Source of the DNA: a virus
Virus record (IMG/VR): IMGVR_UViG_3300028735_000012
Location: 1 to 53,831 of that record
Direction: 5' to 3' (one strand)
DNA: 53,831 nucleotides
A program made the position numbers and the translations under genes. Positions within the stretch are counted from its first letter, which is position 1; each line of letters starts with the position of its first letter. Shown here piece after piece: positions 3,933-53,831 of the stretch. The notes under the pieces are model-generated. The model was not told the DNA's origin. It did no database searches and was given only the letters and a program-made list of their open reading frames with translations.

Positions 3933-4387
3933 TGCTCGCTTTGGTCCTAATTTTGGCGGGCCAGTGGGGGGTAGCGGGGTGCGCGTCCGGTCGGACGATT
4001 TACACACCTCCGGCTTATGCTCCTCAACCTGCTCCTACTACTCTCCCGGCTCCGGCGGTTGAATCGCCCCGTGTGATTGATCAGCCGCCGGTCGATGTCG
4101 AGAAGCTCAAAGCGGAACTGCGACTTGAACTGCGAGCGTATGCCCGTGAGTGGCTAGAGAAAAAGCTCGCTGAGCAACAACAGTCTAGCAATGCTGAACA
4201 AATTACTATGCTGCACATGCCGCGTGAGATGCCTGACGAGGAGCTTGATGCCATACCGGTGATGCCTTCGATCACGCCACAACCCGCGACAAAGATTGCA
4301 CCGCCCATACCACTTTTGCCCTACGTTCTGTTCGCCTGTGCAGCTATCATGCTGCTGTTGGATTTAAAAAGGAGTGAACATGCCTGA
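3932..4387 (+). CDS. Lipoprotein-like protein with coiled coil and C-terminal membrane helix
   Basis: A 151-residue protein starting at the ATG overlapping the previous stop (TAATG). The N-terminus is hydrophobic and ends in a possible lipobox (VAGC), followed by a proline-rich stretch, a charged helical segment with coiled-coil character (VEKLKAELRLELRAYAREW) and a C-terminal membrane helix (LLPYVLFACAAIMLLL). This layout recalls envelope-spanning spanin-type proteins, but the gene order does not match classic Rz/Rz1 and the call is only suggestive. It ends inside the start of the next gene. Confidence 0.6.
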   Translation: MLALVLILAGQWGVAGCASGRTIYTPPAYAPQPAPTTLPAPAVESPRVIDQPPVDVEKLKAELRLELRAYAREWLEKKLAEQQQSSNAEQITMLHMPREMPDEELDAIPVMPSITPQPATKIAPPIPLLPYVLFACAAIMLLLDLKRSEHA

Positions 4388-4706
4388 TTTATTGACCCAT
4401 GTTTTGTTGGCTGTAGGCGGCACGGTATTGGCTTTGCGCCTTGTGCCCCAATTGCAAGACTTACTGCTGGACAAACGATCACCGTCTCAACCGGCAGATC
4501 CAGCAGTGCCGATTAACCCTGTGCCTCCGACGGTCCCTAATGTGCCGCTGCCGGACAAATTGGCTCAACGGCCCGGAGTCCGGCTGTTGCTCAATGCGCT
4601 TGTGACGGTGGCCGCCTTGACGCCCAACAAGCTGGACGACGTTGCGGTCGAGTGGGCTAAGCGATTGCTCCAGATGGCTGAGCTACCTAAGCAGGGGCCT
4701 GAGTGA
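4380..4706 (+). CDS. Small protein with N-terminal membrane helix and proline linker
   Basis: A 108-residue protein; the ATG at 4380 has GGAG close upstream and lies within the end of the previous gene. One N-terminal hydrophobic helix (LLTHVLLAVGGTVLALRLV) is followed by a proline-rich spacer (PINPVPPTVPNVPLP) and an amphipathic C-terminal region. It is part of the 2.1-5.1 kb run of short overlapping membrane and secreted genes. No family recognised. Confidence 0.6.
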   Translation: MPDLLTHVLLAVGGTVLALRLVPQLQDLLLDKRSPSQPADPAVPINPVPPTVPNVPLPDKLAQRPGVRLLLNALVTVAALTPNKLDDVAVEWAKRLLQMAELPKQGPE

Positions 4707-7101: not shown

Positions 7102-7127
7102 ACGACTACCCTAAACGCAGACCCACG

Positions 7128-7223
7128 GAGCAGGACATATGCCCTGCTCTGGTAATGCGGCGGCCCGGTGGGTAGCCCGGGCGCAGACAGTCACCGCATT
7201 CCGGACCCGGCCGGTTGCCGGGT
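7128..7223 (+). promoter_or_regulatory. Cluster of three GC-rich hairpins before a ribosome site
   Basis: Hairpin 1: GAGCAGG (7128-7134) with CCTGCTC (7143-7149). Hairpin 2: AATGCGG (7154-7160) with CCGCATT (7194-7200), enclosing GCCCGG (7163-7168) with CCGGGC (7177-7182). Hairpin 3: ACCCGG (7205-7210) with CCGGGT (7218-7223), immediately followed by AAGGAGG. No T tract follows. The inner stem of hairpin 2 is nearly the same as the hairpin at 7412-7440. Confidence 0.6.
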
Positions 7224-8313: not shown

Positions 8314-9231
8314 ATGAACCTAATCCTGCCCTTGCTCCAGGATGGATTGTCGTACCAGTTGGCGTTGGGTATCCAGGCTGACTGGTACGAAGATGCTAAC
8401 TTGCCCTTAGCAGCAATGGCCTTGCGTTCGCAGGGCCGCGTCGCTGCCAAGTGGGGCCACAATCTCGCTCTTACTCCCCAAGGGGTCGTAGCGGCTTGGG
8501 GCGATAATGGTTTCTTCCAATGCCACGTCCCTAGCGGCCTACTCGCTGTAGCCATTTCTGCTGGCTACAGCCACTCTTTAGCTATCACCCCGGATAGCCA
8601 GGTCGCAGCCTGGGGTGATAACGACTATAACTACAATATCCCCAATGGCTTGCGTGCTGTCGCAATCGCTGCGGGCTATAGCCACTCCCTAGCAATCACT
8701 CCCGAAGCCCAAGTAGTAGCTTGGGGCGATAACGGACATCAACAATGCGACGTGCCTAGCCGCTTGCGCGCCGTTGCCGTCGCTGCGGGCTATAGTCACT
8801 CCCTGGCTCTTACTTCTCAAGGCGAAGTGGTAGCCTGGGGCAGCAATCCGTATAGCCAATACGGCATGCCCCGCAACTTGCGGGCTGTTGCCGTCGCTGT
8901 GGGTTGTAGCCACAATCTCGCAATCACCCCAGAGGCCCAAGTGGTAGCCTGGGGTGATAATGAACACGACCAATGTGAAGTGCCCGACGGCCTGCGGGCT
9001 GTCGCTATCGCTGCGGGCTACAGTCACTCCCTCGCCCTCACCCCGGAGGGAGAAGTAGTAGCCTGGGGCGATAATCGACGCCAACAATGCGCCGTGCCCC
9101 GTGGCCTACGGGCTATCGCTATTGCTGCTGGCTGGCGGCATTCTCTGGCTCTTACGCCAAAAGGTAGAGTAGTAATTTGGGGCGACGAAGAGTATTGCCA
9201 GCATCCTATACCTTCATTTGGGAATGCGTGA
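8314..9231 (+). CDS. RCC1-type beta-propeller protein, copy 1
   Basis: A 305-residue protein; GAGGAAGCG is the ribosome site. A leader of about 45 residues (LPLLQDGLSYQLALGIQADW, then LPLAAMALRSQGR) resembles the short repeat-companion segments found before repeats in planctomycete proteins. It is followed by about seven repeats of 38 residues with the core AAGYSHSLAITPEAQVVAWG and a QCxVPxGLRAVA link, the hallmark of RCC1 propellers (HSLALT, VxAWGxN). Such propellers bind proteins or DNA. No signal peptide, so it probably acts in the cytoplasm. It is coupled to the next copy by TGATG overlap and clearly arose by tandem duplication. Confidence 0.85.
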   Translation: MNLILPLLQDGLSYQLALGIQADWYEDANLPLAAMALRSQGRVAAKWGHNLALTPQGVVAAWGDNGFFQCHVPSGLLAVAISAGYSHSLAITPDSQVAAWGDNDYNYNIPNGLRAVAIAAGYSHSLAITPEAQVVAWGDNGHQQCDVPSRLRAVAVAAGYSHSLALTSQGEVVAWGSNPYSQYGMPRNLRAVAVAVGCSHNLAITPEAQVVAWGDNEHDQCEVPDGLRAVAIAAGYSHSLALTPEGEVVAWGDNRRQQCAVPRGLRAIAIAAGWRHSLALTPKGRVVIWGDEEYCQHPIPSFGNA

Positions 9232-10001
9232 TGCACTTGATTCTACCGCTACTCCAGGATGGCCTCTCGTACCAGACGGCACTGGCCATCCAAGCCGACT
9301 GGTACGACGATAACGACCTGCCTCTAGCCGCAGCGGCCTTGCGGTCGCAGGGGCGCATCGCTACCATGTGGTCACACTCTCTCGCCCTTACTCCAGAGGG
9401 CGAAGTCGTCGCCTGGGGGAATAATAACAATAACCAGTGCGACGTACCTAGCCGCTTGCGCGCCGTCGCTATCGCCGCAGGTGGCCACCACTCCTTGGCT
9501 CTCACTCGCGAGGGGCGGGTAGCAGCTTGGGGCTCCGACTACCAACGCCAATGTCAGGTGCCCGACGGCCTGCGCGCTGTCGCTATCGCTGCTGGTGCCC
9601 GCCATTCTCTGGCTCTGACTCGCGAGGGCCGCGTAGTAGCCTGGGGATGGGGCCACGAACACCAATGTCGGGTGCCCGACGGCCTGCGCGTCGCCGCAAT
9701 CGCCACAAAATATAGCAACTGCCTCGCCATCACCCCAAAGGGGCGGGTGGTGATCTGGAGAAACAATAACCGGTGCCAAGTCGTCCCCAGCCTAAGGGCT
9801 GTCGCCATCGCAGCAGGGTATAACCACACACTCGCTCTTACCCCGGAAGGCAGGGTAGTGGTCTGGGGCGACAATACATACCGTCAGCGCCAGGTGCCCG
9901 ACGGCCTGCGAGCCGTCGCTATCGCCGCAGGTTGGCGACACTCCTCAGCACTCACCCCAGAAGGACACGTCATTATTTGGGGACCAGGTCTTACAACATG
10001 A
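9231..10001 (+). CDS. RCC1-type beta-propeller protein, copy 2
   Basis: A 256-residue protein starting at the ATG overlapping the stop of copy 1. The leader (MHLILPLLQDGLSYQTALAI) aligns with that of copy 1 and fixes the start. Five to six RCC1-like repeats follow, with cores such as AAGGHHSLALTREGRVAAWG. One repeat is shortened (VIWRNNNRCQVVPSLRAVA), so the propeller may have fewer blades or a degenerate one. The family scaffold gives no enzyme activity; ligand binding is inferred. Repeats vary most on the residues after WG(D/S)N, where the loop surface would lie. Confidence 0.83.
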   Translation: MHLILPLLQDGLSYQTALAIQADWYDDNDLPLAAAALRSQGRIATMWSHSLALTPEGEVVAWGNNNNNQCDVPSRLRAVAIAAGGHHSLALTREGRVAAWGSDYQRQCQVPDGLRAVAIAAGARHSLALTREGRVVAWGWGHEHQCRVPDGLRVAAIATKYSNCLAITPKGRVVIWRNNNRCQVVPSLRAVAIAAGYNHTLALTPEGRVVVWGDNTYRQRQVPDGLRAVAIAAGWRHSSALTPEGHVIIWGPGLTT

Positions 10002-10033
10002 CGTTACATCAACATGAGAGGCATAATGTAATA

Positions 10034-10957
10034 ATGCAATTAGTTTTAGATATTTTAAAAGATGATATTCCCTATCATTTAGCCTTAGCCATTCAGGCTG
10101 ATTGGTATGAAGATGAGGGCTATCCTCTAGCTGCTGCCGCTCTGCGTTTGCAAGGACGCATTGTAGCAGGGTGGGACTACTCGCTAGGTCTTACCGACAG
10201 GCGTTATGTGGTCAGCTGGAGATACAGCGACCAGCAATACTGCAACGTGCCGATTGGTATGCGAGCTATTGCCGTCGCTGCCGGCAGTCGCCACTTTTTG
10301 GCTTTGACTCGCAGGGGACGGGTTGTCGCCTGGAGCTGTAATGATTTGCGGCGATGCGATGTTTTGGCAGGGTTGCGAGCTATTGCCATCGCTGCAGGAT
10401 GGCGGCATTCTCTTGCTTTAACAGCCAGCAACGAAGTGGTCGCTTGGGGCGACAACAAATTCAGGCAATGTGAAGTGCCTGCCGGGCTTCGTGCCGTCGC
10501 TATCACTTCGGGCTGGGGGCACTCTCTTGCTCTAACCAAAGAGGGCCAAGTAGTAGCTTGGGGCTACAATGACTATCGCCAATGCAAGGTGCCGGCTGGC
10601 TTGCGGGCTGTAGCTATTGCTGCTGGCGGCTACCATTCGTTGGCCTTGACGCCAAAAGGCGAGGTCGTTGCCTGGGGCGACAATGAATTTCGGCAATGCT
10701 GTGTACCTGCTGGTCTGCGTGCTATTGCTATTGCCGCTTCTAGGTGTTACTCTCTAGCCCTCACCGCTGAGGGAAATGTGGTGGCCTGGGGCGACAATGG
10801 CTATTACCAGTGTCGAGTCCCTGAAGGTTTGCGTGCCGTGGCTATTAGTGCGGGCTGGTATCACTCTCTAGCCCTAACCCTAACCCTCAGGGGCGAAATA
10901 ATAGCATGGGGTTCTTATGGCCGCCGCAATGCACCCATACGGCTGCACGAAACATAG
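10034..10957 (+). CDS. RCC1-type beta-propeller protein, copy 3
   Basis: A 307-residue protein. I chose the ATG at 10034 because MQLVLDILKDDIPYHLALAI aligns with the leaders of copies 1 and 2; an ATG at 9998 would also couple to the previous stop. Seven RCC1-like repeats follow, with two early degenerate blades (YVVSWRYSDQQYC, RVVAWSCNDLRRC). The 5' end is noticeably richer in A and T than copies 1 and 2, so it may have diverged longer or come from another source. It ends 24 bases before an HTH gene. Confidence 0.83.
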   Translation: MQLVLDILKDDIPYHLALAIQADWYEDEGYPLAAAALRLQGRIVAGWDYSLGLTDRRYVVSWRYSDQQYCNVPIGMRAIAVAAGSRHFLALTRRGRVVAWSCNDLRRCDVLAGLRAIAIAAGWRHSLALTASNEVVAWGDNKFRQCEVPAGLRAVAITSGWGHSLALTKEGQVVAWGYNDYRQCKVPAGLRAVAIAAGGYHSLALTPKGEVVAWGDNEFRQCCVPAGLRAIAIAASRCYSLALTAEGNVVAWGDNGYYQCRVPEGLRAVAISAGWYHSLALTLTLRGEIIAWGSYGRRNAPIRLHET

Positions 10958-11301: not shown

Positions 11302-11544
11302 ATGAAAAAAATTAAGCGATGTATTGATTGCGGTCGCCCATACAGCACTCCTCGCAAGTGGATTTGCGGGCAGTGCAAATCCGAGAGGCGGCGACTGCGT
11401 GAGCTGCACGGATATGACGGCGATCCAAGATACACAGCCATCAAGGCCGCTCGTGTTGCGGCCTACGCTCGCAGAGTAGAACGGGGAGTTCCGCTCTTTG
11501 AACCACCACTAACGCGAAAGGAGATCTATGAGTCTGCTGAGTAA
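11302..11544 (+). CDS. Small zinc-finger protein
   Basis: An 80-residue basic protein with a four-cysteine finger: CIDCG and CGQC separated by about 13 residues, then an arginine-rich helix (KSERRRLRELHGY). It probably binds nucleic acid. The ATG at 11302 is 13 bases after AAAGGA; the TTG at 11296 is at the ideal spacing and could be the true start. A small hairpin (GGCTGA with TCAGCC, 11247-11263) lies upstream. The 3' end overlaps the ATPase gene by 17 bases, so expression is coupled with the recombination genes. Confidence 0.65.
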   Translation: MKKIKRCIDCGRPYSTPRKWICGQCKSERRRLRELHGYDGDPRYTAIKAARVAAYARRVERGVPLFEPPLTRKEIYESAE

Positions 11545-13345
11545 AGTACAGCGTGGCCGTGTCGCAAGACCGCCTCGATTACTGATTTACGGTATTCCGG
11601 GTATTGGAAAGGCCCAGCCACTGACGGCAAAGGTTCTTACCCCCACAGGTTTTGTGGAGTTGGGGCAACTCCGCGTCGGCGATCTGGTCATCGGTTCCAA
11701 CGGACGTCCTTGCTCGGTCCTGGGCGTTTATCCCCAGGGAACCAAGGAAGTCTTTCGCGTCACGTTCCGCGACGGCTCGTCCACGGAGTGTTGCGATGAT
11801 CACCTGTGGTTTACCACTACAAAAGGCGAGCGAGATCACGGTTTGCGCGGTGCGGTGAGGGCATTGAGGGACATTCGAAAATCGCTTCGGTACGGGACGC
11901 ATTTCAACCATGCCGTGCCCCGCGTCCGGCCAGTGGAGTTCGAGACCAAGTCGCTGCCCGTCGATCCGTGGCTACTCGGGATGTACCTGGGGGATGGACA
12001 CACCGGCACCAGCACCATCATCACCAATCCCGAAGCCGACATCCAGGATCGCGTTCGTGCAGCGGTGGCGGTCGATGGCGACCGTGTCCGCCTCTACGAC
12101 CGGATGCACATGCGGCTGGTCTCAGCCGACCGAACGGGGACGGAGTTCAAAGCCGCACTCGTCCAGCTGGGCTTAGCCGACGCAATGGCCGAGAGTAAGT
12201 TTGTGCCGCCGATATACCTGCTCGGTTCGGTGTCGCAGCGATTGGAACTGTTGCGTGGCTTAATCGACAGCGACGGGTACGTCGTGTACCCCGGTTCAGT
12301 GGAGTATTGCACCGTCAGTCCTCAGTTGGCCCGAGACTTTTGCTTCCTCGTCCGGTCTCTGGGCGGATCGGCACGAGTGACAACGAGACGCGGTTCGTAC
12401 ACTAAGAATGGCGTGAGGCATAATTGCCAACTCGTCTACCGAATTTACGCATCCTTCCCGCCGGAGATCACGCCAGTTTCGTCCGAGAAGCATCTAGCGA
12501 AGTGGGGCGTGGCAGAGTGGCGAATCCTTCACACCATTCGGGACGTAGAGTACGTTGGGCGCAAAGAGTGTCAGTGCATCCGCATCGACGCACTCGATTC
12601 GCTCTATGTCACAGATGATTTTATTTTGACTCACAACAGCACCATTGGATCACAAGCCCCCAGTCCGATTTTTATTCCAACCGAAGACGGCCTTGACATG
12701 ATCGACGCGGCCAAGTTTCCGCTAGCCACCAGTTTTGACGACGTGCTAGCTGCGCTCACGGAACTCCGCCTACAGCCGCACGACTTCGAGACGGTTGTCA
12801 TCGATTCACTAGATTGGCTGGAGCGGCTGATCTGGGACCGCGTATGCCAAGAGTTCAACGTGAAGAACATTGAGAAGGCGGACGGGGGGTATGCTCGGGG
12901 CTACATGCACGCCCTAACGTATTGGCGTGAGGTCATTGACCTGCTCGACCTACTGCGTAATCAACGAGAGATGGTCGTGCTGCTGATCGCTCACGCCAAG
13001 GTCGAAAAGTTTGAGGATCCCGAAGCTCCGCCCTATGATCGCTACTCGCCGCGATTGCACAAGCACGCGGCCTCGCTTGTAACCGAGTGGTGCGATGCGG
13101 TGCTGTTTGCCACGCGGAAGTTTCGCACGGCTAGCGAGGATGCCGGCTTTGGTCGCAAGCGGACCATTGCCCATGCCATTGGCAAGGATGGTGGGGATCG
13201 GATCCTTCGTACTGTCGGCGGACCGAGTTGTGTCGCCAAGAACCGATACTGCCTGACCGAGGAGCTGCCTTTGTCCTGGGCAGCATTCATCTCTGCTTTA
13301 TCTGCTACTGCTGGTCATACGAAAAAAGGGGGTGGTGATGATTAA
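11528..13345 (+). CDS. RecA-like (Sak4/AAA_24-type) ATPase interrupted by an intein
   Basis: A 605-residue precursor. The extein halves join as a Walker A motif: GIPGIGK (22-28) and then Ser371-Thr372 after the intein. Walker B is VVIDSLD (423-429). The mature 263-residue ATPase resembles phage Sak4-type single-strand annealing or recombinase proteins. The DUF669 gene two genes downstream is the usual partner of such ATPases, likely as a single-strand-binding protein. Splicing must occur for ATP binding because the insertion splits the P-loop. It overlaps genes on both sides. The ribosome site is AAAGGAG. It probably acts in phage DNA recombination and replication. Confidence 0.85.
   Translation: MSLLSKVQRGRVARPPRLLIYGIPGIGKAQPLTAKVLTPTGFVELGQLRVGDLVIGSNGRPCSVLGVYPQGTKEVFRVTFRDGSSTECCDDHLWFTTTKGERDHGLRGAVRALRDIRKSLRYGTHFNHAVPRVRPVEFETKSLPVDPWLLGMYLGDGHTGTSTIITNPEADIQDRVRAAVAVDGDRVRLYDRMHMRLVSADRTGTEFKAALVQLGLADAMAESKFVPPIYLLGSVSQRLELLRGLIDSDGYVVYPGSVEYCTVSPQLARDFCFLVRSLGGSARVTTRRGSYTKNGVRHNCQLVYRIYASFPPEITPVSSEKHLAKWGVAEWRILHTIRDVEYVGRKECQCIRIDALDSLYVTDDFILTHNSTIGSQAPSPIFIPTEDGLDMIDAAKFPLATSFDDVLAALTELRLQPHDFETVVIDSLDWLERLIWDRVCQEFNVKNIEKADGGYARGYMHALTYWREVIDLLDLLRNQREMVVLLIAHAKVEKFEDPEAPPYDRYSPRLHKHAASLVTEWCDAVLFATRKFRTASEDAGFGRKRTIAHAIGKDGGDRILRTVGGPSCVAKNRYCLTEELPLSWAAFISALSATAGHTKKGGGDD
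11612..12637 (+). other. Class 3-like intein with LAGLIDADG homing endonuclease
   Basis: Codons 29-370 (342 residues). The first residue is Ala29 instead of Cys or Ser. Block B has DHLW (His92, Trp94), block F has CQCIRID (Cys350), and block G has Thr368-His369-Asn370 before the extein Ser371. Trp, Cys and Thr at these places match the WCT triplet that marks class 3 inteins, in which the block F cysteine starts splicing. Two LAGLIDADG motifs, WLLGMYLGDG (148-157) and LLRGLIDSDG (241-250), suggest an active homing nuclease. Confidence 0.85.
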
Positions 13346-21302: not shown

Positions 21303-21848
21303 ATGAAAAATGTACTTACGACTGGGCAGGTGGCTCGTATGCTAAACACTTCTCCAAGGACAGTGACTAAGTGGGTCGATTCTGGGCAACTGAAAGGCTA
21401 TCGACTGCCTCTCTCCCCAGACCGACGCATTCCTCGTGCATCGCTGCTGGAATTTATCCGGCAGCACAATATCCCTATTCCGCCCGAGCTAGGCTTGCCG
21501 ATCCTGCTAGTGGTGGGCGACCCAGACATGGCTGAGCAATTGCAACGGCAGCTAGTAGGCTGGAAGGTCGAAGCGGCAGACTCCGTATGGACCGCTGCCA
21601 CAATCGCCACTAAAGCCGGCGGACAGCTACGCGGGGCCGTTGTAAGCGGCCAAATAGGCCGCCTTGAAGCAAGAGAGATCGCCCAAGCCCTAGCAGATCA
21701 AATCCGCCTGCGAATCGTGCTATGCGCGGAAGACGACGACGGCTCGATCTGGACGAGCGACGCTGCACTCATGCGCATGCAGTATCCTGTAAGACCTGAC
21801 GCTATCTCGCGGGCCATCCTTTCGGGCATGACGGGGGGATCAAAATGA
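21303..21848 (+). CDS. HTH regulator with receiver-like second domain
   Basis: A 181-residue protein; AGAGGA eight bases before the ATG. Residues 4-50 form a MerR/excisionase-type HTH (LTTGQVARMLNTSPRTVTKW, then SGQLKGYRLPLSPDRRIPRA). The C-terminal part (LPILLVVGDPDMAEQLQRQL, then DSVWTAATIA, LRGAVVSG, LRIVLCAED) has the alpha-beta rhythm of a response-regulator receiver, with Asp73 or Asp75 rather than a clean phosphoacceptor. Proteins with this HTH followed by a receiver-like fold are familiar to me from planctomycetes. It probably regulates transcription here. Its stop overlaps a truncated frame that runs into the CRISPR repeats. Confidence 0.75.
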   Translation: MKNVLTTGQVARMLNTSPRTVTKWVDSGQLKGYRLPLSPDRRIPRASLLEFIRQHNIPIPPELGLPILLVVGDPDMAEQLQRQLVGWKVEAADSVWTAATIATKAGGQLRGAVVSGQIGRLEAREIAQALADQIRLRIVLCAEDDDGSIWTSDAALMRMQYPVRPDAISRAILSGMTGGSK

Positions 21849-22030
21849 AACTAAACCGCCAGCAGATGGAAGAACTTTTTACCCAACATCAAGGCTTCAA
21901 TGCGGCCACGGTGAGACACCGTGGAGATACAAAGGACCGGTGGGTGGACAGGGTGCAGGGCTTCCAGCTTCAATGCGGCCACGGTGAGACACCGTGGAGA
22001 TACGACCGGTGCCTACCGATTGCTGCATGA
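21845..22030 (+). pseudogene. Short frame running into the mini-CRISPR array, likely a gene stump
   Basis: An ATGA overlap with the previous gene and the sequence MKLNRQQMEELFTQHQ look like a real coupled gene start. After 16 codons the frame enters the first CRISPR repeat, and all further residues come from repeats and spacer. The likely story is that the array was inserted into, or replaced most of, a downstream gene. It is unlikely to encode a functional protein. Confidence 0.4.
21894..22003 (+). CRISPR. Phage-borne mini-CRISPR array: two repeats, one spacer
   Basis: Two identical 37-nt repeats (21894-21930 and 21967-22003) flank one 36-nt spacer (21931-21966). The repeat begins GCTTCAATG, ends GGAGATAC and contains a perfect 8-bp stem, CCACGGTG-AGA-CACCGTGG, as in repeats processed by Cas6-like enzymes. 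The spacer matches 46262-46297 of the tape measure gene at 29 of 36 bases. No adaptation genes or Cas6 are present in the window. Type IV-like effector genes lie 5.6 kb downstream. The plus strand is the likely transcribed one, as the repeat end resembles known 5' handles. Confidence 0.85.
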
Positions 22031-22206
22031 GCAATGGCTACTACGCGACAAATAATTGTTGCCACCCTTTTTTAAGGAGGCAAGTATCACAAAACATCCT
22101 ATGAAATTTTATTGATGACACTTTAACAATCCAAACAGTTGAAGATTTTTTCGCAGTAGTTTGTGTCGTGTTTTTGCTTGGAGGCGTGAAAGTTTAGCAA
22201 AGATTG
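22031..22206. other. Gene-free region after the mini-array
   Basis: No gene seen. An orphan AAGGAGG at about 22073-22079 is followed only by a four-codon frame (ATG at 22101), which suggests loss of a gene. AT content rises toward the promoter at 22207. Confidence 0.5.
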
Positions 22207-22235
22207 TTGACTGGAATAAATGTTTTACGAATAAT
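22207..22235 (+). promoter_or_regulatory. Sigma-70-type promoter for the sigma-factor gene
   Basis: TTGACT (22207-22212), a 17-base spacer and AATAAT (22230-22235). Transcription would start about 35 bases before the ATG at 22278. Confidence 0.75.
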
Positions 22236-22277
22236 TGATTAACGGGCCTAAGCGGAACTCAACCCCTCCAGAAAGCC

Positions 22278-45525: not shown

Positions 45526-45969
45526 ATGAAAAAATCTAGCCTCATGGCAATGCTCGAGGACGCCGGCTATCGCATGCACGAGCAAGGACAATTGACACGT
45601 TACTATGTTATTAACGTACTCATGCACAAGCGAAGCAGGGAAGGACAACTGCTAGTGGAGTATCACGAGCCGCCTGAAAAGGTGATGACACACGCCGAAG
45701 AGTTGGCTAGCCTGTTTCGCAAACGAGGCTATCGCGAGTGGCGGATTCCCCAGTTGGTGCAAGAGCAGCTTGCCCGTGAGGCAGAGGCTGAAGCCAAACG
45801 CAAAGCCGAGAAGTTCAAAAAACGCGAGGCGATGCGCAAGAAGCAACGGGGAGATGCGCAGGTGGAAGCGGAAGCAACGGCTCAGGCGATTGCGGAGCTA
45901 GAAGCACATGGCCGATCTCAGACAATTCGCAAGCAACGCGGCGGAGGCCCTGGAGCGACTGCGCAGTAG
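45526..45969 (+). CDS. Tail assembly chaperone, second frame or separate helical protein
   Basis: A 147-residue protein with a weak ribosome site at ATG 45526. The frame is open upstream through the end of the first chaperone gene, so it may be reached by a -1 ribosomal frameshift. It has a short alpha-beta start (LEDAGYRMHEQGQLTRYYVI) and then a long coiled coil rich in Lys, Glu and Ala (EAEAKRKAEKFKKREAMRKK). It overlaps the tape-measure start by 62 bases, another hint of coupling. Confidence 0.6.
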   Translation: MKKSSLMAMLEDAGYRMHEQGQLTRYYVINVLMHKRSREGQLLVEYHEPPEKVMTHAEELASLFRKRGYREWRIPQLVQEQLAREAEAEAKRKAEKFKKREAMRKKQRGDAQVEAEATAQAIAELEAHGRSQTIRKQRGGGPGATAQ

Positions 45970-47875
45970 TGCAGATCTCGCTTCGCTAGGCTTGACTGCC
46001 GCCTTTGAGCGATTGACCCAACGCCTGCAACCGCTTCTCACACAATTGGGGACAGGAAGCGTCTCTGGTGCCCAGACTGCGGCATCGAGATCTGGGGCAA
46101 AGGCCGATAACTTAGCCGCGTCGCTGCCGTTGGTGCTAATCAATCCGCCCGGTGGCGGTGCGGTCTCACCTCCACCACCGCCACCGGGTTCGAGGACGCC
46201 CAGCATCAATACACCATCACTTGCGGATCTTTCACCTGCCACCGTGACTACACCGACGGTCAAGGGGCCGGCTGGGGGACAGGGTGCAGGGTTTCCTTTG
46301 CCTCTCCCGGTTCGCATTGTGTCGATGGATGCCAAAGCGTCGGCGCAGATGGCCGTGCTGGCGTTGCCCGGCCAGGTGGCGACCGTGGCAGCCCAGCAGC
46401 AAAGGCAGGCGGGCGGCGGGGGTGGCATTACGCAATTCGCGCAGAATGCCGGTGCGCAAGGTGCAAGCCTGTTTGCACAACTTAGAGACGCTATGACCGG
46501 CTTTGCGTCATCTGCTGATCCATTTATCAGCTGGCCAACATACAAGGCAAGTGTGGAAGGGCTAAGCATCAGCATTGGGCAGATGTTTACACCTGCCCTG
46601 AATGAAGCTTCTCGATACATCCAGCAAGTAACGGCATATATTGATGGTCTGGATGCGACAACCAAAAGCTACGCGGCCCGCGTGGTGATTACGGGTGTGA
46701 GTGTGCTGGCCGGAGTGGCGGCTTTGTACAAACTTGGTCAAGCTTTTTACGCCGTTGCCGTGGCGGCACGAGCGGCTACGGTGGCCATGATTTCCAACCC
46801 TGTGACGGCGATTATTGCGGCCACGGCGGCGGTGGCGGGCTTGGCGGCGGCTTGGTATCTGGCGTCCAACAACGCCAATAGTGCCGCTACGGCGGCGGGC
46901 AAAGTGGCGGGGGTAATTGCAGGATTGCGTGATGCCGGCAGTGCTGAACCGCAAGTCACAGATTTGCGAAAGGTTTCTCCCGAAACGCGAAAGCTCATCG
47001 AGTCAGCTTCGCAGAAAAAATCCCCGACTATTTTGGGGCAAGCCCGAGAAGCACTAGATAAAGAAGCAGAAGAAGCAAAGCAAGCGTTTGAAAAAGCAGA
47101 CGCCGTTTACAAGGCGACACAATCGCAACGTGACACCGCCTATGCTTTTGACGCTGCGATTAGCAAGGCATTTGCGGAAAATGTACGAGAAGCGTCTCGC
47201 ACGATTAGCTTGTTTAACGCATATCCAAGCCTCAGAGAGGGGGAAATTCCTAAAGGTGTTCAGCTTACTCCATTTCAACAAGCTGTTTTGCGTGAACGCC
47301 CTAAGACAATGGAGCAGGTGCGACGGGTTGTAGGCGCAGAAGCCGACGCCAGAATGTCAAGCACCCTAGTGCAGGAAGCGGCTAAATTGCCCGACGCGAT
47401 CAGAGATCGTGTCGTGCAGGAGTTTCGCAGTGACATCCCATCAACGTATTTTACTCAAGGCTATACGTCTGCACCTCTGGGAGTGTTAAAACAAAAACGT
47501 CCTGAACTGTTAGATGCTCGCAATCTAAGTTTTCCGATTAATCCTGCCGGCAGTGTGATGGTTGACTACGGCATTTCTCGCACACTGACACAAGCACGTG
47601 AGCGATTGGACGCCATTTCACGATTGCAAAATGCCGTAGGGGGTGGTGGCACCACAGGTGGCCCGATGCAAGCGTTAGGCAGTCTACCTGCACCGGTGAT
47701 TTCCAGCAGTGAAGCGTTAGCCGATCGGCTTCAAATTGCTGCTCTCAAAGGTGACGATTTGCAAGCGGCTAACATGGCTAAGCAGTTACAAGCTCTGGAG
47801 CAATCCAATGTGCTTTTGAAAGAAGTAAAAGACGCGATTCGTGATCTTCGCATCTTACCACAGTGGATGTATTAG
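45908..47875 (+). CDS. Tape measure protein
   Basis: A 655-residue protein with GGAG upstream of the ATG at 45908. It is helical over most of its length, with a proline- and glycine-rich linker (residues 80-130) and hydrophobic stretches near 258-325 (SVLAGVAALYKLGQAFYAVA, TAIIAATAAVAGLAAAWYLA), as in tape measures that may insert in the host membrane. Its length fits a tail of roughly 100 nm by the usual 0.15 nm per residue. Residues 119-130 are the site matching the mini-CRISPR spacer. Confidence 0.88.
   Translation: MADLRQFASNAAEALERLRSSADLASLGLTAAFERLTQRLQPLLTQLGTGSVSGAQTAASRSGAKADNLAASLPLVLINPPGGGAVSPPPPPPGSRTPSINTPSLADLSPATVTTPTVKGPAGGQGAGFPLPLPVRIVSMDAKASAQMAVLALPGQVATVAAQQQRQAGGGGGITQFAQNAGAQGASLFAQLRDAMTGFASSADPFISWPTYKASVEGLSISIGQMFTPALNEASRYIQQVTAYIDGLDATTKSYAARVVITGVSVLAGVAALYKLGQAFYAVAVAARAATVAMISNPVTAIIAATAAVAGLAAAWYLASNNANSAATAAGKVAGVIAGLRDAGSAEPQVTDLRKVSPETRKLIESASQKKSPTILGQAREALDKEAEEAKQAFEKADAVYKATQSQRDTAYAFDAAISKAFAENVREASRTISLFNAYPSLREGEIPKGVQLTPFQQAVLRERPKTMEQVRRVVGAEADARMSSTLVQEAAKLPDAIRDRVVQEFRSDIPSTYFTQGYTSAPLGVLKQKRPELLDARNLSFPINPAGSVMVDYGISRTLTQARERLDAISRLQNAVGGGGTTGGPMQALGSLPAPVISSSEALADRLQIAALKGDDLQAANMAKQLQALEQSNVLLKEVKDAIRDLRILPQWMY
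46262..46297 (+). other. Protospacer-like site matching the mini-CRISPR spacer
   Basis: Thirty-six bases in the tape-measure gene match the spacer at 29 positions; spacer positions 16-30 are identical (GGACAGGGTGCAGGG). Mismatches fall at spacer positions 3, 6, 11, 12, 15, 31 and 36. In frame, the spacer reads KGPVGGQGAGLP and this gene KGPAGGQGAGFP. The three bases 5' of the site are GTC. Confidence 0.85.
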
Positions 47876-53116: not shown

Positions 53117-53831
53117 GTGACGTTGCTGTTGCGCACGCGGGTTCTCCCTACGTTACGGTATATCCGTGGAGTACTACTGGCTTTGGTACGAAGTATGCCA
53201 ATCCCACGACCCTACCGACGGGATCGGGCTACGGTGTGTCCTTCTCTCCGAACGGTGATATCCTTACCGTGGCGCACGTGACTTCTCCCTTTGTCTCGGT
53301 GTATCCGTGGGATAGTAGTGGTTTTGGTACGAAGTACAGCAATCCCACAACTCTACCGACGGGTACGGGTCGCTTGGCGGTGTTTCCCCCCAACGGGGAT
53401 GCGATTGTGGTGGGGCATGAGACTTCTCCCTTCGTCACAGCCTATCCGTGGAGTAGTAGTGGCTTTGGCACGAAGTATACGAACCCTACGACGTTACCGA
53501 CGGGTACAGGCACGAGTGTAGCCTTCTCTCCGGGTGGCGACGTGGTGGCCTTGTCGCACGCGAATTCTCCCTTCATCACGGTGTATCCGTGGAGTAGTAG
53601 TACCGGCTTTGGTACCAAATACACCAATCCCACGACGCTGCCGACGGGGAACGGTCGTGGCGTAGCCTTTTCTCCTGCCAGCGACGTGATCGCGGTGGCC
53701 CATGCAACTTCTCCCTTCCTCACGGTGTATCGGTGGAATAGTGGTAGTGGTTTTGGCACCAAATATGCCAATCCCTCCACGTTGCCAGCGAGTACAGGCA
53801 CGTGGGTAGCTTTTTCTCCTGCTGGCAATGC
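53113..53831 (+). CDS. Repeat beta-propeller-like virion protein, 3' end cut off
   Basis: At least 239 residues, starting at the ATG overlapping the previous stop and running off the window. Repeats of about 47 residues have the cores VTVYPWSSSGFGTKYxNPTT, LPTGTG and VAFSPxGD(V/A)(V/I)AVAH; the SPxGD element is like WD40 and related propeller blades. Such proteins occur near tail-fibre genes of metagenomic phages and may bind host surfaces. The DNA repeats are very similar, which could explain why the sequence stops here. Confidence 0.75.
   Translation, partial: MSDVAVAHAGSPYVTVYPWSTTGFGTKYANPTTLPTGSGYGVSFSPNGDILTVAHVTSPFVSVYPWDSSGFGTKYSNPTTLPTGTGRLAVFPPNGDAIVVGHETSPFVTAYPWSSSGFGTKYTNPTTLPTGTGTSVAFSPGGDVVALSHANSPFITVYPWSSSTGFGTKYTNPTTLPTGNGRGVAFSPASDVIAVAHATSPFLTVYRWNSGSGFGTKYANPSTLPASTGTWVAFSPAGN

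Follow-up and report, generated by a model that had tools for sequence, protein, structure and literature searches.

The window analysed here, the 53,831 nt (positions 1 to 53,831) of IMG/VR virus record IMGVR_UViG_3300028735_000012, contains a CRISPR mini-array that consists of one spacer and two repeats of the type I-G family, with no cas genes found in the phage. The spacer matches a stretch of the phage's own probable tape-measure gene. We consider it probable that the mini-array lends one guide to the type I-G Cascade of the host, and that a related phage is excluded in this way. The phage array is most likely a fresh example of a mechanism that has already been described in other viruses, here with a type I-G repeat.

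The array and its repeat family

Family searches find terL/terminase, portal, protease, capsid and tail genes in the window. The mini-array lies at positions 21894-22003 on the minus strand and has two identical 37-nt repeats with a spacing of 73 nt. The leader-distal repeat (21894-21930; GTATCTCCACGGTGTCTCACCGTGGCCGCATTGAAGC in crRNA orientation) is a perfect copy of the one that is leader-proximal in that orientation (21967-22003). Between them is the spacer (21931-21966; AAAGGACCGGTGGGTGGACAGGGTGCAGGGCTTCCA, guide sense TGGAAGCCCTGCACCCTGTCCACCCACCGGTCCTTT), which is 36 nt long, compared with mostly 35-38 nt for the host I-G spacers. The phage therefore has the arrangement by which such arrays are recognised, that is, one or two spacers between CRISPR repeats in a viral genome. 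When its reverse complement is folded, the repeat forms a hairpin of 8 bp, with 4 nt and then the 8-nt handle ATTGAAGC after it.

No cas genes were detected among the large phage ORFs scanned, on a contig that may be incomplete. Cas4g/Cas1g was not found in the phage, nor was any I-G gene for adaptation or processing. Csb2 was also not found in the phage, which is a weaker negative because the control set gave no signal as well.

Under strict matching, IMG/VR yielded no hit to the repeat, and the exact stem with the exact loop length is absent from the 84,980 species genomes of GTDB. However, a relaxed pattern, TTCAATGNGGCCRCGG-loop-CCGYGGA, occurs in bacteria and archaea, on at least 116 genome contigs from Planctomycetota, Acidobacteria, Proteobacteria, Nitrospira and others. 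Among the matches listed, many of these contigs have arrays that repeat every 70-75 nt, all nine of the nine leader-side ORFs of 550-610 aa that were tested are Cas4g/Cas1g, and Csb2 (Cas5-Cas6), Csb1/Cas7g and Cas3g also adjoin the host arrays. These neighbours therefore tie the phage repeat family to type I-G (formerly I-U). An RNA-targeting type III system was considered and rejected, because the cas genes next to the host arrays are of type I-G. Where G[A/G]GG stands in the repeats of most hosts, that of the phage reads GCGG, and it carries one extra base; the GCGG variant is also present in IMG/VR contig L127.

Three features of the host systems give the orientation of the array. Among the matches listed, 14 of 40 host arrays have a degenerate terminal repeat, which is the mark of a leader-distal end, at the GCTTCAAT end, and none of 43 has one at the opposite end. 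The host Cas4g/Cas1g genes are on the side opposite the GCTTCAAT end and read towards the array. Finally, the cut by Csb2 falls 4 nt past the hairpin, with a handle of 8 nt remaining (PMC9638904), and the phage repeat fits this geometry of hairpin, 4 nt and 8-nt handle only when it is read as the reverse complement. Because the three agree, the guide TGGAAGCCCTGCACCCTGTCCACCCACCGGTCCTTT reads as antisense to the tape-measure mRNA. The sequence-only reading had given the guide the same sense as the mRNA, and this is now reversed. For type I systems, which target DNA, the sense of a guide makes little difference.

The spacer and the tape-measure gene

The protospacer-like site resident in the phage genome is at 46262-46297 on the minus strand, inside a plus-strand ORF of 655 aa (45908-47875) that is a probable tape-measure gene. 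This assignment is weak; tape-measure PHROGs (28, 2276, 167 and 1533) are the sole family matches of the ORF, and all of them are at 1e-5 or weaker (best E value, 1.1e-5). The site begins at codon position 1 and covers codons 119-130, in a Gly/Pro-rich stretch. Spacer and site are identical at 29 of 36 positions and are in the same frame, in which the spacer encodes KGPVGGQGAGLP and the site KGPAGGQGAGFP; of the seven base differences, four leave the amino acid unchanged. The sequence-only reading had reported both the match and its coding character. The first is borne out by the alignment, the shuffles and BLASTN, and the second by translation of the two stretches.

A chance match is excluded. 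None of 400 dinucleotide shuffles of the spacer reached 29/36, the best being 26/36, and the second-best site for the spacer in the window has 22/36. The number of sites with at least 29/36 that would be expected by chance is 1.3e-6 (analytic), and BLASTN gives 37.4 bits with an E value of 6.7e-6. No better match to the spacer was found in 9.6 Gb of sequence, where the best scores were 35 bits among plasmids (PLSDB, 7.3 Gb) and 33 bits among phages (INPHARED, 2.3 Gb).

Third codon positions hold five of the seven differences (simple binomial P = 0.045), a lean that looks real but modest and is suggestive only. We infer that the source of the spacer was a related phage. The earlier proposal, that it came from the tape-measure gene of such a phage, agrees with the homology beyond chance and with the third-position lean, but no such phage was found in IMG/VR, INPHARED or PLSDB. 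The check proposed at that time, a perfect match in a related phage, gave none in IMG/VR and none better in INPHARED or PLSDB. Likewise, neither the codon variants of the spacer nor a 20-nt core has an exact counterpart in IMG/VR, and a search for tape-measure relatives as the spacer source found none. In the opposite direction, a comparison of 1,527 host I-G spacers with the window gave partial matches only, whose size is roughly what that number of tests would give; the best (21/22, in a repetitive stretch) was from host locus L096.

The best match anywhere sits in the same genome, as would be expected if the host Cas4/1-Cas2 had taken the spacer from an ancestor of this very phage, with escape changes arising later in the resident gene. 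Escape mutations would also lean silent. However, seven changes over 36 nt (19%) exceed what escape through the PAM or the seed would need, and five of them, at positions 22-34, are far from the PAM side and resemble divergence between lineages. A self-derived spacer is therefore rather improbable.

Counted from the PAM side in crRNA orientation, the mismatches are at positions 1, 6, 22, 25, 26, 31 and 34. The positions 3 and 6 named before had been counted from the wrong end. The type I-G PAM is TTN (PMC9638904), and the resident site, read in the guide sense, has CAA in front of it, not TTN. Because of this CAA and of mismatches 1 and 6 among the seven, we predict that the carrier's own site is not cut. 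The suggestion that mismatches may spare the resident copy stands insofar as the site looks protected, but the reason is better put as the missing TTN together with mismatches 1 and 6. The same two features would show how self-attack is avoided by a carrier that retains a homologous gene. A possible cost is primed adaptation against the carrier, which is discussed in PMC7099407. The tape measure predicted for a competitor reads KGPVGGQGAGLP and then has an NAA codon (for Lys, Glu or Gln).

Expression of the array and the small ORF around it

In the function that we favour, minus-strand transcription of the mini-array would yield an RNA that the host Csb2 (Cas5-Cas6) would process into one crRNA. 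This crRNA is predicted to begin AUUGAAGC-UGGAAGCCC, with AUUGAAGC as the handle, and would load the host type I-G Cascade. Cascade with the phage guide would then destroy the DNA of a relative that has a matching tape-measure gene and a TTN PAM, and the carrier's tape-measure gene, with its seven differences and CAA instead of TTN, would be spared. We infer both the transcription of the array and the exclusion of competitors. Such a function would add a type I-G-repeat case to the use of host CRISPR by one phage against another, with the spacer aimed at a structural gene common to close relatives.

Several observations count against this function. The array follows a plus-strand gene, and read-through from it would give the non-functional strand. 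Furthermore, there is no leader motif, no strong minus-strand promoter was found, no phage in the databases searched matches better and the exact repeat is in no host genome searched. The modest third-position lean and the weak tape-measure assignment also count against it.

The leader comparison was made with host arrays. Among the matches listed, the motif CGCTCGCAAA is present at 8/10 or better in 26 of 42 host leaders, on the Cas4g/Cas1g side of the array and nearly always 52-55 nt from the first repeat, which agrees with the orientation given above. On the trailer side it is present in 8 of 40, with both strands tried and with no fixed distance. The I-G leaders, which come from many phyla (host loci L005-L120), often have TTGCGAG nearer the repeat besides CGCTCGCAAA. 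In the phage, the place expected for a leader is an A+T-rich intergenic stretch (22004-22277; 59% A+T, compared with 45% for the window). Its flank does not have CGCTCGCAAA at 52-55 nt, and the best resemblance is 6/10 at 64 nt. Because the leader motif is missing, we do not claim the phage locus as a complete I-G array. No minus-strand promoter of the sigma-70 type passes a scan of 22004-22277. A weak terminator-like stem with a T-run after it is present on the plus strand at 22045-22062, where one was found and 0.8 would be expected by chance.

The missing leader motif and minus-strand promoter, as well as the overlap of the array with an ORF, would also fit a piece of a host array that was gained by recombination and that is now unexpressed, functionless and decaying. 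This we think very unlikely, since the two repeats have stayed identical along all 37 nt and the spacer matches a homologue of the carrier's gene, which would be unexpected for a random host spacer.

The gene directly upstream of the array (21303-21848, plus strand) encodes an HTH_17/excisionase-like regulator (Pfam HTH_17, E value 1.3e-11; PHROG excisionase, E value 7e-7). An ORF of 61 aa (21845-22030, plus strand) starts at an ATGA overlap with this gene and runs through the array; PHROG, Pfam and further searches found no homologue of it. With a single repeat the ORF would have 45 aa, in the frame MKLNRQQMEELFTQHQGFNAATVRHRGDTTGAYRLLHEQWLLRDK and with a stop at 22052, whereas a version with no repeat would not read in this manner. 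Codon usage does not separate the one-repeat frame from the array frame.

The one-repeat frame is a weak basis for another view of how the spacer was gained, to which we give little credence. It supposes that a lone type I-G repeat lay in a small phage gene and that the host Cas4/1-Cas2, without a leader, inserted a fragment of a rival's tape-measure gene and duplicated the repeat. If true, solitary phage repeats would be landing sites for gaining spacers against competitors. The open one-repeat frame also raised the idea of an off-target insertion into ordinary coding sequence, which was rejected as the main reading; the repeat is clearly of a real CRISPR family, and codon usage is indecisive.

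Comparison with other viral arrays

Mini-arrays that target relatives and not the carrier have been described for archaeal viruses and phages, according to the accounts in PMC6858448 and PMC7099407. The phage and prophage mini-arrays of Faure et al. (2019), as these two papers present them, likewise have a single spacer, no cas genes and no leader. In that presentation their spacers fit a related virus and not the carrier, whereas here the relative was not found in IMG/VR, INPHARED or PLSDB. A further difference from the mini-arrays so presented is that the repeat here is of the type I-G family and that no exact host repeat match was found. For leaderless phage mini-arrays, PMC6858448 suggests, in the account that we draw on, that spacers are gained by recombination with host arrays; this could explain the missing leader motif here, but not the missing promoter. 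No description of type I-G phage mini-arrays was found in the literature searched, the coverage of which is partial and is not evidence of absence.

The mini-arrays of SPV1 and SPV2, viruses of Sulfolobales (Medvedeva et al. 2019, PMC6858448), also have one or two spacers and no cas genes. The SPV carriers owe their protection to point mutations where the spacer matches, and the resident site in the phage is likewise mismatched. However, the SPV arrays are intergenic and have host-like leaders and promoters, whereas the phage array has no leader motif and is inside a small ORF. In addition, the SPV arrays were confirmed in virions by PCR. With the host type I-G arrays, the phage array has the repeat family, the hairpin, the handle and the spacer length in common; it is without their cas operons, their greater array length and the CGCTCGCAAA leader motif that 26 of 42 of them have.

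RNA anti-CRISPRs (Racrs) and solitary repeat units (PMC10651486) are another likeness, since these too are mimics of CRISPR repeats in phages without cas genes. Because solitary repeat units in phages can act as Racrs, the phage repeats might be a Racr-like decoy that ties up the host Csb2/Cas7g, with the identity of the spacer irrelevant. The leaderless context of the array would agree with this, as would the single I-G-like repeats in several IMG/VR phages. However, a Racr has a solitary repeat, whereas the phage array has two perfect repeats and a spacer of canonical length that appears meaningful. A decoy would also predict a spacer unrelated to phage genes, and the match of this spacer to phage sequence is not due to chance. 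We thus think a decoy unlikely.

The relaxed repeat is present in 20 IMG/VR contigs. Five of them (L122, L124, L126, L134 and L140) form a single lineage, in which an array with one spacer sits between terL and portal (at about 1283-1617 in L126). Contig L125, which is related to this lineage, has at the same site (about 4290-4500) near-identical repeats and flanks and a different spacer. It looks as if spacers turn over while their site in the phage stays fixed, which the near-identical repeats and different spacers make testable. One-spacer arrays are also present in L128, L130, which carries a tape-measure gene, and L139, which has terminase and portal genes, and short arrays are present in L127 and L132. 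The recurrence of the one-spacer architecture in the L126 lineage, L125, L130 and L139 counts in favour of the mini-array function proposed here, as do the published mini-arrays that spare their carrier. The contigs L121, L123, L129, L131, L133, L135, L136, L137 and L138 have a single I-G-like repeat with no second copy seen nearby; in L129 it is cut by the contig end. These single-repeat contigs may hold solitary repeat units or RNA anti-CRISPRs.

Some other features of the window were also observed. A twister ribozyme of type P5 is at 7116-7180 on the plus strand (39.1 bits, above the Rfam gathering score). The plus-strand ORF at 11528-13345 has an N-terminus like that of a terminase, primase or helicase loader, a middle part like a LAGLIDADG/homing endonuclease and a Sak4/AAA_24 C-terminus, and it probably contains an intein. 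Diverged tandem repeats of 114 nt at 8641-10809 (plus strand) encode tail/beta-propeller-like proteins, and further repeat arrays are at 53123-53798 (141 nt) and 337-1439.
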